Source: a virus. From it: 29,676 bases of DNA. Both the position numbers and the translations under genes were made by a program. The notes under the pieces were generated by a model. The model made no database searches and was not told where the DNA came from. It was given only the letters and a program-made list of their open reading frames with translations. The DNA lies in IMG/VR virus record IMGVR_UViG_3300027777_000107, positions 1 to 29,676 of that record, one strand, 5' to 3'. Below are positions 2,392-22,490 of the stretch, piece after piece (position 1 is the stretch's first letter; every line of letters begins with the position of its first letter).

Positions 2392-3351
2392 TTAACCCTG
2401 AGTTTCTTCAGATTTGTTAATTTTTGCCACCGCTGTACGCCAATCACCCTTGCAAAACACCAACACATTTTGGTGGGTTTTCGCCATCTTTCTACCTGAT
2501 TCAAATTGTTTGGTCACACGCATAGAAGCAGAGCCAACGCTTGTTGCCAAAATAGCTTCGTTGTATAGCAATGCTCCCGCTTGCTCAAAACCATCAATGG
2601 TTTCGCTTACAAAGTTTCTGTAAAAACCTTTTTTGTCCCTAAAGTCACCAACAACAAAACAAGCAAAAGTATCGTCTTTCATCTTTTGCACAGAACGCAA
2701 AATAATACGTTTATAGGCAGCTAAAAAGGTGTGCCATTCCATGTTAGAAAGGTCTTGGGGGTCATCGCTGTAAACTTCTAAATCGCCGTAAGGTGGGCAT
2801 GAAAAAACCATGTCAGCATCAGGTGCTAGAGCAAGCATTTCCATGCTATCCCCACATACCCAAACAGGTTTTAATGGGGTGTCAATTTTGTCAATCTGTG
2901 TTAGGTTTGCATCAATTTGCTCTTGACGCAAATCGCAACCCCAATAATTTCTGTTAAGCGCAGCAGCAACAATGCCTCTCACGCTACCTCCTGCAAATGG
3001 ATCAACCACTTGACCTAGATTGGGGCAAAACCATTTGACAGCCAACTCACAAAGCACAGGGTCAAAAATGCTTGTGTTCAATTCTGTGTTTTCTTCTCTA
3101 ATTCCTTCTTTTTTCCTGTAGAAGTCGTAAGAACCCGCTTTGTTGTCGGCATAAAGTAAAGACTTGTTTCTCCCAACTTCACTCTCAATGCCTAAGGATT
3201 TCCAAGCTCTTTTACGCTCCTGCCATTCACCCTGACGGGCATCAAGAATTGTAAAAGGGGGCAGCGTAAAGCGTTGGGCTACTACCCCTGAGGCTTGAGG
3301 CTTGATGATTTCGCCAAACAAGTCCACGCCATATAAAGACACATTTTCCAT
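2392..3351 (-). CDS. phage DNA methyltransferase (DNA modification methylase)
   Basis: 319 aa from the ATG at 3351, chosen because GGAG lies 8 nt upstream; the frame stays open to 3432, but the extra residues look non-coding. SAM-binding motif I is DPFAGG (residues 117-122), followed by YWGCDLRQEQ (acidic loop) and CGDSMEML. The catalytic motif is SCPPYGDLE (184-192), a DPPY-type variant with Ser-Cys in place of the Asp. It ends with QNVLVFCKG. This fits the N6-adenine or N4-cytosine class of orphan phage methylases. No restriction partner is seen, so it likely protects phage DNA or marks regulatory sites. It lies downstream of the HTH regulator gene and 3 bp before the DUF1376 gene. Confidence 0.85.
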   Translation of the reverse strand: MENVSLYGVDLFGEIIKPQASGVVAQRFTLPPFTILDARQGEWQERKRAWKSLGIESEVGRNKSLLYADNKAGSYDFYRKKEGIREENTELNTSIFDPVLCELAVKWFCPNLGQVVDPFAGGSVRGIVAAALNRNYWGCDLRQEQIDANLTQIDKIDTPLKPVWVCGDSMEMLALAPDADMVFSCPPYGDLEVYSDDPQDLSNMEWHTFLAAYKRIILRSVQKMKDDTFACFVVGDFRDKKGFYRNFVSETIDGFEQAGALLYNEAILATSVGSASMRVTKQFESGRKMAKTHQNVLVFCKGDWRTAVAKINKSEETQG

Positions 3352-3414
3352 AAATTTTTCTCCGCAAACTCCCTGAAAAGAAACAAACGGCAGGGGGGGA
3401 GTACCCTTTTCGGC

Positions 3415-3428
3415 GGGGTAGCTACCCC
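3415..3428. repeat. perfect 14-bp palindrome upstream of the methylase gene
   Basis: GGGGTAGCTACCCC is a perfect palindrome in the gap between the HTH regulator stop (3454) and the methylase start (3351). A related GGG-AGTA-CCC element lies 12 bp away, at about 3397-3406. It could be an operator or an RNA hairpin within the leader of the methylase gene. There is no T-tract, so it is not an ordinary terminator. Confidence 0.4.
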
Positions 3429-3453
3429 CCACCTAGCCGTGTTTCAACTTATT

Positions 3454-13929: not shown

Positions 13930-14153
13930 AGGTTGTAGTAAGGTACTTTGTACGCTATGCCGTTAACCGTAATGTTTATAAACCCCACGGGGTTAGCTGG
14001 CAACGTGGCAGACCCTGCCGTGGCGGTTGAGGCAGAAGTAAAGTTCAGCAGGTTGATAAAGTATTGCTGCCATGTCCGTGTGGGGCGCTTGGTCTGTGCG
14101 TCCAAAAATTCCGACTGCGGATAGGGTTGGGATTGCGGGATTGGTAATGCCAT
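13926..14153 (-). CDS. small virion-associated hypothetical protein
   Basis: 75 aa. The N-terminus is Pro/Gln-rich ([18 protein letters not shown]), followed by RPTRTWQQYFINLLNF, an Ala/Thr/Ser-rich stretch, and FINITVNGIAYKVPYYNL, which reads as beta-strands. I recall similar short proteins next to gp10-like genes in aquatic podoviruses, with no known function. It starts with the shared base of a stop-start junction with the gp10-like gene at 14153 and ends at an ATGA overlap with the cupin gene. Confidence 0.6.
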   Translation of the reverse strand: MALPIPQSQPYPQSEFLDAQTKRPTRTWQQYFINLLNFTSASTATAGSATLPANPVGFINITVNGIAYKVPYYNL

Positions 14154-16015
14154 CAGTTTTCCCCTGCAGAAGCCTTAAGGTTAGCAGACACAATGACCGC
14201 TTTTACGGGGTCTGAGATTGCCACCTCAAACACTCTGTCTCTAGCCCAACCCAAACGCCGCCAAATGGCACGGTTGGCATATCGACCAATAGCGCCAATA
14301 GTCACCCAATGTTCGTTTGACCATGTAGAACCGCCATCGTCTGACCATTTCAGCATGGCTTGGGGGTTGTCGCCTTGCCCTGTGGATAGCCCTACGCCTG
14401 GTTGGAATTGAATCTGTAGCTCATCAAAGTATTGGCGCTGAAAGTCAGCCACCAAATGTGGCGCTCTGCGTAGCCGCCTAACTTGCTGACCATCATCTGT
14501 GTAATTGTCTTTGTCTAGCTTGTAAAGCTTGCCGTTGGAGTAATCACCAACTAACACTAATCCTTGGAATTGGGCGCAGCAGTTGCCTCTAGCACGTTCG
14601 TATTGGCCCAAATTGTTGGTGTAAAGCCACTTGTGCCACATCTGAGATGCAACGTCATAGCACCATGTAAGCTGAATAGACGGAAATGAAATTACATAAA
14701 CCTCATGGCCTTCTAGCTGGTAAGTCCACGCCACCGCATCGCTGACGGTTTGATTGGTCAGGGAATTTTCTACGGCATGAGTAGAAATACGTGTGGGGAC
14801 GTAGCCGTTCATTTGAACGATTTGGGCTTGACCACGGATGTTGCGGCTTAAGTAAGCAAATGAATTACCTAAACGGGCCAAACTCTTTTTGGCTGCAATT
14901 CCATGCTGTGTAGAAGTGCCTGGGATTCTTTGAAATGGGAATGGGCTAGTGCCTGCATCAATCCATACCTCACTAGACACTTCACCCAACAAATAAATTT
15001 CACGGTGGTCAACAATTAGCGACACCAAATCGTCAGGCGCACCGTCTTTGCTGCCAAATGAAACTGATGAGGATATGGGAGACAACACCGCAGACGCACC
15101 AAATTGCTGCGTATCAGGGTTGTTATAGACAAAGTAGTTGTCCACAATGTCCACAGATGTTGCGCCTGTAAACGCGCCGTCTGTGGCTGGCAATACAGAC
15201 CAATTTAGCCCGTAAAGCGTTCTAGAAGTGACGGTTTGAGAGTTATTGACCGTGTAAGTTCCTGCCCCGCCCGTGCCTGTTCCAAACGCTGTAATGATGG
15301 TTTGGGCGGTTACGGTAGAGCCTTGGATGGTTTGACCTAAAGCCAATGTGCCGCTAGTCACAGCAGTCACCGTAAGGGTTGTGCCTGATATAGAACCCGT
15401 TACCACCGCACCAGCTATAACGCTGTTCATTTGCTCAGACGCTATGGTTTGGCTGATGTTGATGGTGTATGTGCCTACTCCACCCGAACCTGAACCCAAT
15501 GCGGTTATCACGGTTTCTTGGGTAATTCCCACCCCAAACAAGGCTTGGTTTATGGCAATTGTGCCATTGGTGATAGCAGTCACGGTTAATGTTGTGCCGC
15601 TAATTGACCCTGTAAACACCGCAGAAGATGGGCTAGAAATACGCCATGTGTAGCGGTTTGTGCCATCCACAATGTAGCAATTCACGCCATTGTCAGTTAT
15701 CCCCACAATGCCTGTAGATGAATTTAACTGACCAACCATTGTGGTTGTGTAGGTAGAAGTAAGCGCATAAACATAAGGCCCACACACCGCAACCATAACA
15801 TCGCCACCTGATAGCGTTCTAAGCCCTCTCACCTCTTGCTGATTCTGAAACAGAACCAAAGATGTAAGGCCTGGCGTAGGGTAAAGCGCCACCACGCCAC
15901 GGTCACCAGGCTGCTTTAAAGGGTCGATTTCAGGGACAAAATTAATGCATTCCTGTGCATCTTGATAGATGCTTGGCGCTTCATAAGATGGGCCGACAAA
16001 GCCAAAATCAGGCAT
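14153..16015 (-). CDS. P22 gp10-like tail hub / DNA stabilisation protein
   Basis: 620 aa; P22 gp10 is about 470 aa. The N-terminus ([20 protein letters not shown], then [11 protein letters not shown]) and the C-terminal half ([36 protein letters not shown]) match the gp10-like family. This protein joins gp4 and closes the packaged head. The extra length is explained by two copies of a beta-rich module at residues 133-197 and 204-267, inserted between [12 protein letters not shown] and the segment [20 protein letters not shown]. It shares a one-base stop-start overlap with the gp4-like gene upstream. Confidence 0.85.
15215..15406 (-). repeat. beta-rich inserted module, copy in gp10-like protein (second)
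   Basis: Encodes residues 204-267 of the gp10-like protein: [20 protein letters not shown], then [20 protein letters not shown], then [14 protein letters not shown]. It is closely similar to the copy just upstream in the same gene and to one in the gp4-like gene. Confidence 0.75.
15425..15619 (-). repeat. beta-rich inserted module, copy in gp10-like protein (first)
   Basis: Encodes residues 133-197 of the gp10-like protein: [20 protein letters not shown], then [20 protein letters not shown], then [12 protein letters not shown]. The order [12 protein letters not shown] - G.T..A..I..G.G.GG.GTYT.. - SQT.AS is shared by all three copies in this window. Confidence 0.75.
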
Positions 16016-16989
16016 TAACGAAAGCCCCCGTCCATAATAAACCCTGCATCTTTAGCCTTACCCACCATCAGGCTGTCAGGGTAACGTGATACCTGTGGGG
16101 GACGCATATTGGTGCGCTTGATTGTGGCTTTGGCTTGGGCAGCGTAAGCGTTAATCATTGCAATCTGTGTGGCGTTTGCCTTACCAAACATGGGCATTAG
16201 GCGTTCAGCCAAACACCACCGCAATGCCATGTTGTAGCCTTGGGGGAGTTGTATGGTGTCATACAAACCTGAGTACGTCCTGAAGATCGTGCTTGTAAAC
16301 AAATGAAGCTCACCACTAGACGGGTTTGGGTACACATAAAGAGTCCCCAATAGCTCACTTGGTTGGTAGTAAATCATCTTTGCCCAAGGGCCATTAAGCT
16401 GTTTGATGCCCAAGGATTCGTATTCTTCCAAGCTCAGAATGGCTACGGGGTAGTCCAAATATCCCCCCGCCAAGTTAGTGCCGCCCTGTTGGGTAGCAAC
16501 CCTTACAAACGCAGATTCAATGGTTAAGGGGCGTTCATAGTAGGCAGAAATTGCCGTGCTTGCTACGGTTTGGGCCACGCTGACGGTGTATGTGCCGCCC
16601 TCATTGACGTTGCCGCCTGCACCCGTTCCAAAGCCTACGATGGTCGTTCCTGCCGTGATACCTGTGCCGCTGATGGTCATGCCCATAGTGATGCCACCTG
16701 CAGTCACGGCGTTGGCAGGCACAGTCAGGGTTGTACCAGCGATAGAGCCTGTGAATGTTGCACCTACAGACCCGCTTGGGCCTAGTGTGTACTGGACGGT
16801 ATTTTGTACGGTTTGGAAGATGATTTCTGTCTTATAGAAAACCATCATATTTTCATTTGACCATTGAGCGGTCATATCATTGAGCATATCAAAGGCATCT
16901 TGAGCCTCATCAGCGGTAGGGGATTCCCCCGCAGCCAATGCGCCGATGTCCTTCATGGCTCGGCTGATGATGTCAATGGGTTGGGTCAT
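16015..16989 (-). CDS. P22 gp4-like head-tail adaptor
   Basis: 324 aa; P22 gp4 is about 166 aa. The N-terminus [20 protein letters not shown], then [13 protein letters not shown], is typical of this adaptor family, as are [13 protein letters not shown] and the C-terminal [15 protein letters not shown] and [13 protein letters not shown]. The protein would form the ring under the portal to which the gp10-like protein attaches. The beta-rich module (residues 79-148) sits in a loop after VQYTLGPSG, and so accounts for part of the length. It is joined by an ATGA overlap (16986-16989) to the gene upstream. Confidence 0.85.
16546..16755 (-). repeat. beta-rich inserted module, copy in gp4-like protein
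   Basis: Encodes residues 79-148 of the gp4-like protein: [20 protein letters not shown], then [20 protein letters not shown], then [14 protein letters not shown]. It has the same order of motifs as the two copies in the neighbouring gp10-like gene, with a few extra residues. Confidence 0.75.
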
Positions 16990-20315: not shown

Positions 20316-22490
20316 TTAAAGCACAACCCAACGGCTGCCGCTTGGTACTGTTACTGATTGACCGCTTGCAACTGTCATAGGCCCAACTGACATGGCACTA
20401 GACCCTGATGGAATGCTGTAGCTTGCGGCTACTGTGTTGGAATTTACGACTAGACCGTTACTAGCAACCGTTTGAGGCGAACTTAGATTGCCTGTTAGTG
20501 GGTTAAATGTAAGTTTTGTAGAAGATACGTTTGCGCTTGAAATAGAGCCTGTGGTGGCGCTTGTAAACGTCAGGTATCGGGTTGCGTTAGTAGTGGTGTC
20601 GTCTGTAATTGTCAGACCGCCTGTACTAGCTTGCCAAGTGGGTGCAGCAGCACCGTTGGATGTTAGGACATACCCTGCCGTTCCTGCGGCTGTAAACGCA
20701 TAAGCACTACCTGTACCGTAAGCCACGCCCCCATTGGTTGGGGTAGCGGTTCCGTTTGTGCCGCCACGGGCGATTGCAATGGTGTTTCCGTTCCATGTGG
20801 CTGAAGTGATAGAGCCAGGATAATCAAGGGTGTTGGTTGACCAAGATGTGTTTGCGGGGGTTTGGTCGTGTCTATCCCAAGAACCTGCGGCAGTTGCATT
20901 GGATAACAAAACAACCGTTACATAAGCGCCTGATGGCACAGAAACAATCAAAGTCCCTGAGTTGTTGTTGACCGTGATTGCGCCGCTACTTTGGTTGTTG
21001 TTAAACGAAAAAATAGTTCCGTTTGACAAAGTGGTAGCGTTCGGCAATTGAATCACCTGACCGCCTGACCCTGTGATCAAATAAACAGGGGTTGACGCAA
21101 CAGTTAGCGTGATTGTGGAACCTGATGCCGCAACACTTGTAAATCCATTGAAGTAAGCGTTTGCGGTAATGTTGTTGCTTGAATCCCGCAAAACCACGCT
21201 GTTTGCACCGCTGGACGTTGTAACGCCCGTGCCGCCATTGGCTACGTTTAGCGTTCCTGCCAGGGTAACGGCCCCTGTGGTGGCGCTCGATGGCGTAAAT
21301 CCCGTTGTTCCTGCGCTGAATGTGGTCACACCTGTAGACGGCGCATTTGCCCATGATGGCACACCCGCCGCTAAAGTCAGAATTTGCCCGTTAGTACCTG
21401 CCGCCAAAAACGTAGTTGCACTCGTTGCGCTTTGGTAAGGCAAAGAGCCTGCCGCACCGCCTGCAAGGTTTGTAGCGGTTGTGGCGCTGGTGGCGGTAGC
21501 TGCATTGCCACCAATAGACAATCCGCTTGCCGTGCCTGTTAACCCCGTTCCTGCGCCTGTAAATTGGGTGTTAGCGGTAATGGTTGTGCCTGTGATCGCT
21601 GCTGCTGTCGTAGCGCCTACAGTCGTGCCGTTAATCGTGCCGCCTGTAATTGCTACCGCATTGGCGTTTTGGGTAGACATAGTGCCAAGACCCGACACTT
21701 GTGTGTTTGCAATTGCAATGGCTGTATTGGTGACAGACGAAACCTGACCCGATGCATTTGTAACAAATACAGGCACGGATGAGGCAGAGCCATACGTTCC
21801 CGCAGTACCCACGGGCGTAATGCTGAACACATTTGCCGCTAAAGACAATCCTGTTCCAGCGCTGTAAGTAGTTGAAACGGCAAAAGAAGACCAATTAATA
21901 GCAGTAACGCCTAATGTGCCGCCAGGCTGTGCGGTGCTGTACCAAGCTGAACTTGCTTGACCACCGCTTAAAACAAACACAATTGCGCCAACGTATTCGT
22001 CCCATGTGTCAGCGCCTGGGCTTCTAGTCCACGCCCCTGCTGCCACCACATAAATGCCGTTGTTAGCCGCTGTGGATTGGTTTTTAACCAAAACCGTGTT
22101 ACCCGCCACCAAACTTACGGTGTCAATAGTCTGAAGACCTGACAACGTGATATTTGTGGTGGTTGCCGCATTGACAGGCTGTTTCCAGCTTAATCCTGCT
22201 GCGTAGTAATCCACATATTGCTTGTTGGCAATGTCTGTAGGGCCTGTAGGGGCTGCGGTCACCGTGCCTGACGTAAACGCACCTGTGGACGGGGTTGTTG
22301 CCCCTATGGTGGTGCTGTTTATCGTGCTGTTTGTGATATTTAACCCTGATTGATCGGGCGAAATATTGGCGTAAAACGGCGTTCCTGCGGGGCCAATCAG
22401 CGAAATTAACGCAAAGGTTGGCTCGGGTTGAAAATACCCTGAACAGGGACGATATTGGTCGTTTGGGGTGACCGCAGCATTATTGGACAT
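20316..22490 (-). CDS. long repetitive tail fibre
   Basis: 724 aa, very rich in Thr, Ser, Ala, Gly and Asn. The N-terminus (PRP-type CSGYFQPEPTFALISLIGPA) is likely the tail-attachment part. TGPTDIANKQYVDYYAAGLS, WKQPVNAATT, TIDTVSLVAGNTVLVKNQST and NNGIYVVAAGAWTRSPGADT form a conserved fibre domain near residues 80-190. The remainder is repeats of the NGTTVGATT, FTGAGTGLTG and NGGTGVTTSSG kind, and LPNATTLSNGTIFSFNNNQS near residue 480. It is the shaft-like fibre of the adsorption apparatus. Its repetitive nature makes in-frame length change likely between strains. Confidence 0.8.
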   Translation of the reverse strand: MSNNAAVTPNDQYRPCSGYFQPEPTFALISLIGPAGTPFYANISPDQSGLNITNSTINSTTIGATTPSTGAFTSGTVTAAPTGPTDIANKQYVDYYAAGLSWKQPVNAATTTNITLSGLQTIDTVSLVAGNTVLVKNQSTAANNGIYVVAAGAWTRSPGADTWDEYVGAIVFVLSGGQASSAWYSTAQPGGTLGVTAINWSSFAVSTTYSAGTGLSLAANVFSITPVGTAGTYGSASSVPVFVTNASGQVSSVTNTAIAIANTQVSGLGTMSTQNANAVAITGGTINGTTVGATTAAAITGTTITANTQFTGAGTGLTGTASGLSIGGNAATATSATTATNLAGGAAGSLPYQSATSATTFLAAGTNGQILTLAAGVPSWANAPSTGVTTFSAGTTGFTPSSATTGAVTLAGTLNVANGGTGVTTSSGANSVVLRDSSNNITANAYFNGFTSVAASGSTITLTVASTPVYLITGSGGQVIQLPNATTLSNGTIFSFNNNQSSGAITVNNNSGTLIVSVPSGAYVTVVLLSNATAAGSWDRHDQTPANTSWSTNTLDYPGSITSATWNGNTIAIARGGTNGTATPTNGGVAYGTGSAYAFTAAGTAGYVLTSNGAAAPTWQASTGGLTITDDTTTNATRYLTFTSATTGSISSANVSSTKLTFNPLTGNLSSPQTVASNGLVVNSNTVAASYSIPSGSSAMSVGPMTVASGQSVTVPSGSRWVVL

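Follow-up and report, generated by a model that had tools for sequence, protein, structure and literature searches.

Neck genes and module copies in the window

The window, i.e., the whole stretch of DNA analysed here, is a linear virus record of 29,676 bases. Among its late genes, those for terminase, portal, scaffold and major head protein are followed by fibre genes and by the genes of a gp4-like adaptor and of a gp10-like protein of head closure. A 724 aa protein encoded between the head and fibre genes (20316-22490, minus strand) matches head decoration and virion structural PHROGs, and a protein encoded at 2392-3432 (minus strand) combines a DNA methyltransferase PHROG match with a ParB-like nuclease segment.

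The gp10-like head-closure (nozzle or packaged-DNA stabilisation) protein (620 aa; 14153..16015, minus strand) matches phrog_578 (head closure Hc3) over residues 4-618 with an E-value of 2.8e-102, and the top fold match of its model is P22 gp10 (8eap, E 6.7e-16). Further profile matches are 7eeq, 9vyg and 8tvr. The full-length profile and the predicted fold together place it in the P22 gp10 head-closure family. The adjoining gp4-like head-tail adaptor (324 aa; 16015..16989, minus strand) gives weak matches to SU10_adaptor (PF24175, E 5e-6) and phrog_637 (Ad3, E 1.3e-4), and a profile match to the P22 gp4 PDB chains (E 2e-4) that falls into two pieces. These matches to P22 gp4 and to podovirus head-tail adaptors are weak but consistent with one another and, with the position of the gene next to that of gp10, point to the gp4 family. 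The two proteins are accordingly assigned, gp4 with the lesser confidence, to the families of the P22 tail accessory factors gp10 and gp4, which are 472 and 166 aa in length and carry no module.

The gp10-like protein contains two copies, and the gp4-like protein one copy, of a module of 65-71 residues, much as the preliminary description had it (64-70 residues). Copy 1 (gp10 residues 132-196; 15428..15622, minus strand) and copy 2 (residues 203-267; 15215..15409, minus strand) lie six residues apart, copy 2 following copy 1, and the gp4 copy (residues 77-147; 16549..16761, minus strand) has one loop that is 4 residues longer. Pairwise protein identities among the three are 60%, 50% and 54% (z = 22, 14 and 15; 1000 shuffles). 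A profile built from the module recovers the three copies with i-Evalues of 2.2e-27 (copy 1), 1.6e-27 (copy 2) and 9.8e-22 (gp4); an HMM scan of the window yields no fourth copy, the next-best open reading frame having E = 1.7. The claim that the modules account for much of the excess length over P22 holds for gp10, where the module block of ~142 residues makes up nearly all of it, but only in part for gp4, where the module contributes less than half and the rest is a middle region typical of the larger adaptor type to which this gp4 belongs. The DNA of copies 1 and 2, proposed earlier as a place to look for a recent duplication, is 60% identical, and the same codon is used at 16 of 39 shared residues. 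With this identity and a near-random choice of codons, a recent event is rejected and the duplication is old.

Predicted fold, composition and distribution of the module

Modelled alone from 79 diverse copies (AlphaFold), the module is confidently predicted as a single all-beta domain (pLDDT 95.9, the value for copy 2 folded by itself) with strands at 4-22, 30-32, 40-45 and 53-70, the first and last being long. In the gp10 monomer model the copies occupy residues 132-200 and 203-269 with high confidence (pLDDT mostly >90 for copy 1, ~90-96 for copy 2), between strands E120-125 and E272-275; confidence is low for the N-terminal residues 1-22 and the C-terminal residues 514-620. The best PDB fold match of the module (Foldseek) is 8eci chain 1, from Arthrobacter phage Bridgette (prob 1.00, TM 0.69, E 0.032), with a probability well above that of the next match and deposited as 'Decoration protein'. 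Matches to an F1-ATPase barrel, ubiquitin E1 and T5 pb9 reflect general barrel likeness only (TM 0.4-0.6, E ~1 or more), and PDB sequence matches of the module profile are short antibody hits judged to be due to chance.

Over all of its 126 residues, gp7 of phage Judy (Bridgettevirus) matches 8eci chain 1; its gene lies right after the major capsid gene, and the same protein is annotated as a decoration protein in phages ChuckDuck and Karkharias. The decoration proteins of the Arthrobacter phages Bridgette and Judy are described as dimeric cement proteins that bridge capsomeres (PMC13033339). The module and the 8eci protein have DVGRTITRAGIPAGTTITAVASGT in common (hhalign E 8e-5, probability 61, over 24 of 71 columns only). 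Their likeness thus extends over the whole module in fold, whereas in sequence it is confined to one segment of 24 residues (xVGxxIxxxGIPAGTTITAxxSGT), and the Foldseek E-value is only 0.03. Moreover, gp7 is a free-standing 126-residue capsid protein, whereas the module of the window is an inserted domain. On fold prediction and profile comparison, homology of the module with the Bridgette-type decoration protein is likely but not proven.

Charged residues make up ~3% and aromatic ones ~4% of the modules, and threonine, serine and glycine together half, against 17%, 11% and 25%, respectively, in the gp10 core. There is hardly any tryptophan, and the conserved positions are mostly glycine, threonine and serine plus one tyrosine. 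This composition is unlike that of a typical aromatic sugar-binding surface, yet would be compatible with binding. The two gp10 copies each have a distinct conserved consensus, that of copy 2 being TIQGxGVTAxTIITALG. In comparisons with ~20 close relatives, the gp10 core has a dN/dS of 0.042, its two modules have values of 0.060 and 0.077, and the gp4 module has one of 0.086; many pairs approach saturation at synonymous sites, which makes these figures rough, but none comes close to one. They indicate strong purifying selection on all three modules, which are functional.

No Pfam or NCBIfam model above cut-off covers the module, matches such as FeoA (E 0.05) being sub-threshold; this holds for the carbohydrate-binding families in these collections and also for Ig-family models, the best of which is Big_15 on gp4 (13 bits against a cut-off of 27), isolated modules giving nothing. 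The profiles phrog_21413 and phrog_38233 contain the module and match all three copies of the window, but each clusters whole proteins (595 and 896 columns) and does not define the domain. A tblastn search of phages with the isolated module gave no match, which is ascribed to the low-complexity filter, as the same collection contains module-bearing gp4 proteins; a literature search on the module motifs returned unrelated ricin and antibody papers only.

Viral proteins in which the module is predicted include a major capsid protein, gp10, a side tail fibre, tip attachment protein J and a pectate lyase. In contigs found with the module profiles, further hosts are tail sheath (DUF3383), minor capsid of the XM1 gp53 type, neck terminator, baseplate J and wedge, major capsid proteins, lambda-type decoration protein D and fibres, and also large cellular proteins in which FG-GAP or RHS repeats occur; the contigs are of phage, bacterial and archaeal origin. 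A cement protein is likewise among the hosts of other copies. At five loci on cyanobacterial contigs (L185, L193, L199, L224 and L239), very large open reading frames of 3,200-3,660 aa that run off the end of the locus carry two or three modules. A 1,905 aa protein on a Nitrosarchaeum contig (L198:3205-8919) combines the module with a Pfam match to ubiquitin-E1 FCCH; as Uba1 is among the weak fold matches too, there may be a distant kinship between these two barrels. Two proteins with collagen repeats from the giant virus Indivirus ILV1 (BFVD A0A1V0SCQ2 and A0A1V0SDM6) are also predicted to contain the module. Ig-like domains of tailed phages are promiscuous small beta domains that occur in many exterior virion proteins and vary in presence among close relatives. 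There is perhaps an even chance that the module is an uncatalogued and very widespread domain family of similar reach, which phages and some bacteria and archaea place in loops of nearly all classes of exterior virion proteins, and to which free-standing decoration proteins of the capsid would belong as one form. The module differs from Ig-like domains in fold and sequence, and in sitting internally in head-completion proteins.

Insertion sites and history of gain

Two complete environmental phages, MW202674 and MW202520, have gp10 cores 63% and 55% identical to that of the window, in which one propeller blade strand runs into the next through a hairpin and the modules are cleanly absent; their gp4 proteins carry one module each. 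Both proteins are module-free in Rhodoferax phage P26218, Pseudomonas phage PAE2, phage DSL-LC05 and a Vibrio phage, and in gp4 of these more distant phages (P26218, PAE2, DSL-LC05 and Vibrio phages) the module is missing at the corresponding loop. In Xanthomonas phage PBR31 this site in gp4 is occupied by a diverged insert that includes LGGDISGAGIPAGATVTAI. Module boundaries agree across alignments of 31 gp10 and 30 gp4 proteins. Since relatives of both proteins are module-free at the same sites, the modules are insertions, lying in loops between conserved family segments as had been proposed. The opposite case, a core domain present everywhere in invariant copy number, does not apply: no module is found in 101 of 333 full-length gp10 proteins, nearly all others carrying two, and copy number varies.

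Two modules occur in gp4 at 22 loci (e.g., L141, L255 and L286). An apparent third gp10 copy of ~25 residues, found in 20 or so proteins, most likely represents the end of copy 2, separated from the rest by a nested insertion; in five gp10 proteins with seemingly one copy (739-749 aa), a second one is probably present but diverged or interrupted. At four loci (L121, L143, L154 and L159) copy 2 of gp10 has a module of another kind (AIATAGTGYSVNDIVTVVGGVYG...GGVVTGLSLTSFGAYTSTPSNPVSVT) inserted at its ITALG/TGTGG loop, an arrangement of a domain inside a domain inside gp10. At two others (L103:3509-5803 and L160:4395-6674) gp10 has four modules, the fourth seemingly within the third at the same ITALG/TGTGG loop. 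A second, hypervariable insertion site follows QPGVGL (columns ~877-926 of gp10 alignment A4, residues ~541-546 of the window gp10); the inserts there are unrelated short stretches, present in lineages both with and without modules.

The history of the modules was traced on gp10 core trees of 90 and 116 sequences from which the modules had been left out. Presence of the gp10 modules requires a single change of state, supported at 100% by SH-aLRT in the 116-row tree, and presence of the gp4 module one change on the same 116-row tree, older than the gp10 event, so that a sister clade has the gp4 module and lacks those of gp10. Repeated gains or losses among close relatives are not seen on the 116-row tree. 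As the first scans were biased to module carriers, the C-terminal core of a basal gp10, which is free of modules, served as query of a further scan; among the 80 best of >600 matches, all 77 full-length gp10 proteins carry modules. Nearest neighbours of the copies keep their position in 109 of 109 cases for gp10 copy 1, 100 of 105 for copy 2 and 174 of 176 for gp4. The gp10 copies are 56% identical to each other and 51-52% to gp4 and other modules; this slightly closer mutual likeness suggests a single insertion followed by tandem duplication.

Possible roles of the modules in the neck

The modules are read here, with somewhat better than even confidence, as three copies of an autonomous beta-barrel of the capsid-decoration type, placed in exposed loops of two neck proteins and serving to stabilise or shield the neck. 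In this lineage the gp4-like protein gained its module once and gp10 its pair once and later, after which the modules of both proteins were inherited vertically under strong purifying selection; the pair would have arisen by tandem duplication of one inserted module. The domains would project from the neck as an outer layer, which would comprise ~24 domains if the P22 stoichiometry of ~6 gp10 and ~12 gp4 subunits applies. Such a layer may stabilise or shield the neck through neighbouring subunits or the capsid vertex, as decoration proteins do. A decoration or stabilisation role is favoured because of the placement in exterior proteins, the kinship with a decoration protein and the strict retention of the modules, the fold match itself being suggestive only.

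Adhesion, the main rival role, is less probable; the modules would then loosely hold the virion to the host envelope or to extracellular glycans, in the manner of Ig-like or carbohydrate-binding modules. In lactococcal 936 phages carbohydrate-binding modules decorate the neck, Dit and major tail proteins (PMC6669499). As extra domains of neck and tail proteins that are optional within one phage group they resemble the module of the window, whose many exterior hosts, tail fibres among them, mirror this distribution. Its occurrence in tail fibres, and in large proteins of cyanobacteria or with RHS and FG-GAP repeats, also fits adhesion. However, the module matches the 936 modules in neither sequence nor fold and lacks an aromatic platform, its poverty in charged and aromatic residues and the absence of carbohydrate-binding or Ig matches above cut-off speak against this role, and the neck is not the usual site of first contact. 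That the modules of gp4 and gp10 touch each other or a neighbouring subunit and, as essential parts, lock the neck shut is improbable. Their retention in all 77 gp10 proteins of the sample chosen regardless of modules, the strong purifying selection, and the different conserved consensus of copies 1 and 2, which suggests different contacts, would agree with a lock; but the sister clade with a module in gp4 alone is evidently viable, so that the gp4-gp10 module pair is not required, and many relatives tolerate nested insertions in copy 2.

The preliminary description further saw in the module a mobile, exon-like domain spreading within virion genes. This is right in that the same domain occurs in many unrelated virion proteins, on phage, bacterial and archaeal contigs and with nested and tandem copies in some relatives, but it does not hold for present mobility. 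No near-identical module DNA was found in unrelated contexts, identity reaching at most 76% between modules of unrelated host proteins and at most 75% within one protein. Taken together with the single gains on the tree and the clustering of copies by position, this indicates that the spread across proteins took place long ago and rarely; a cassette actively moving between virion genes at the DNA level is largely refuted in this sample and very improbable. The module is thus regarded as an ancient, selected and promiscuous domain of the decoration type, and not as a spreading exon.

Optional small domains on the phage surface are usually accounted for as Ig-like or carbohydrate-binding. The module is an apparently unnamed barrel of a different kind with a similar lifestyle, found even in head-completion proteins. 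With sister clades that have or lack the gp10 modules, and a solved decoration protein as the nearest fold, the role of the module is directly testable, and a domain model would improve the annotation of many unknown virion proteins.
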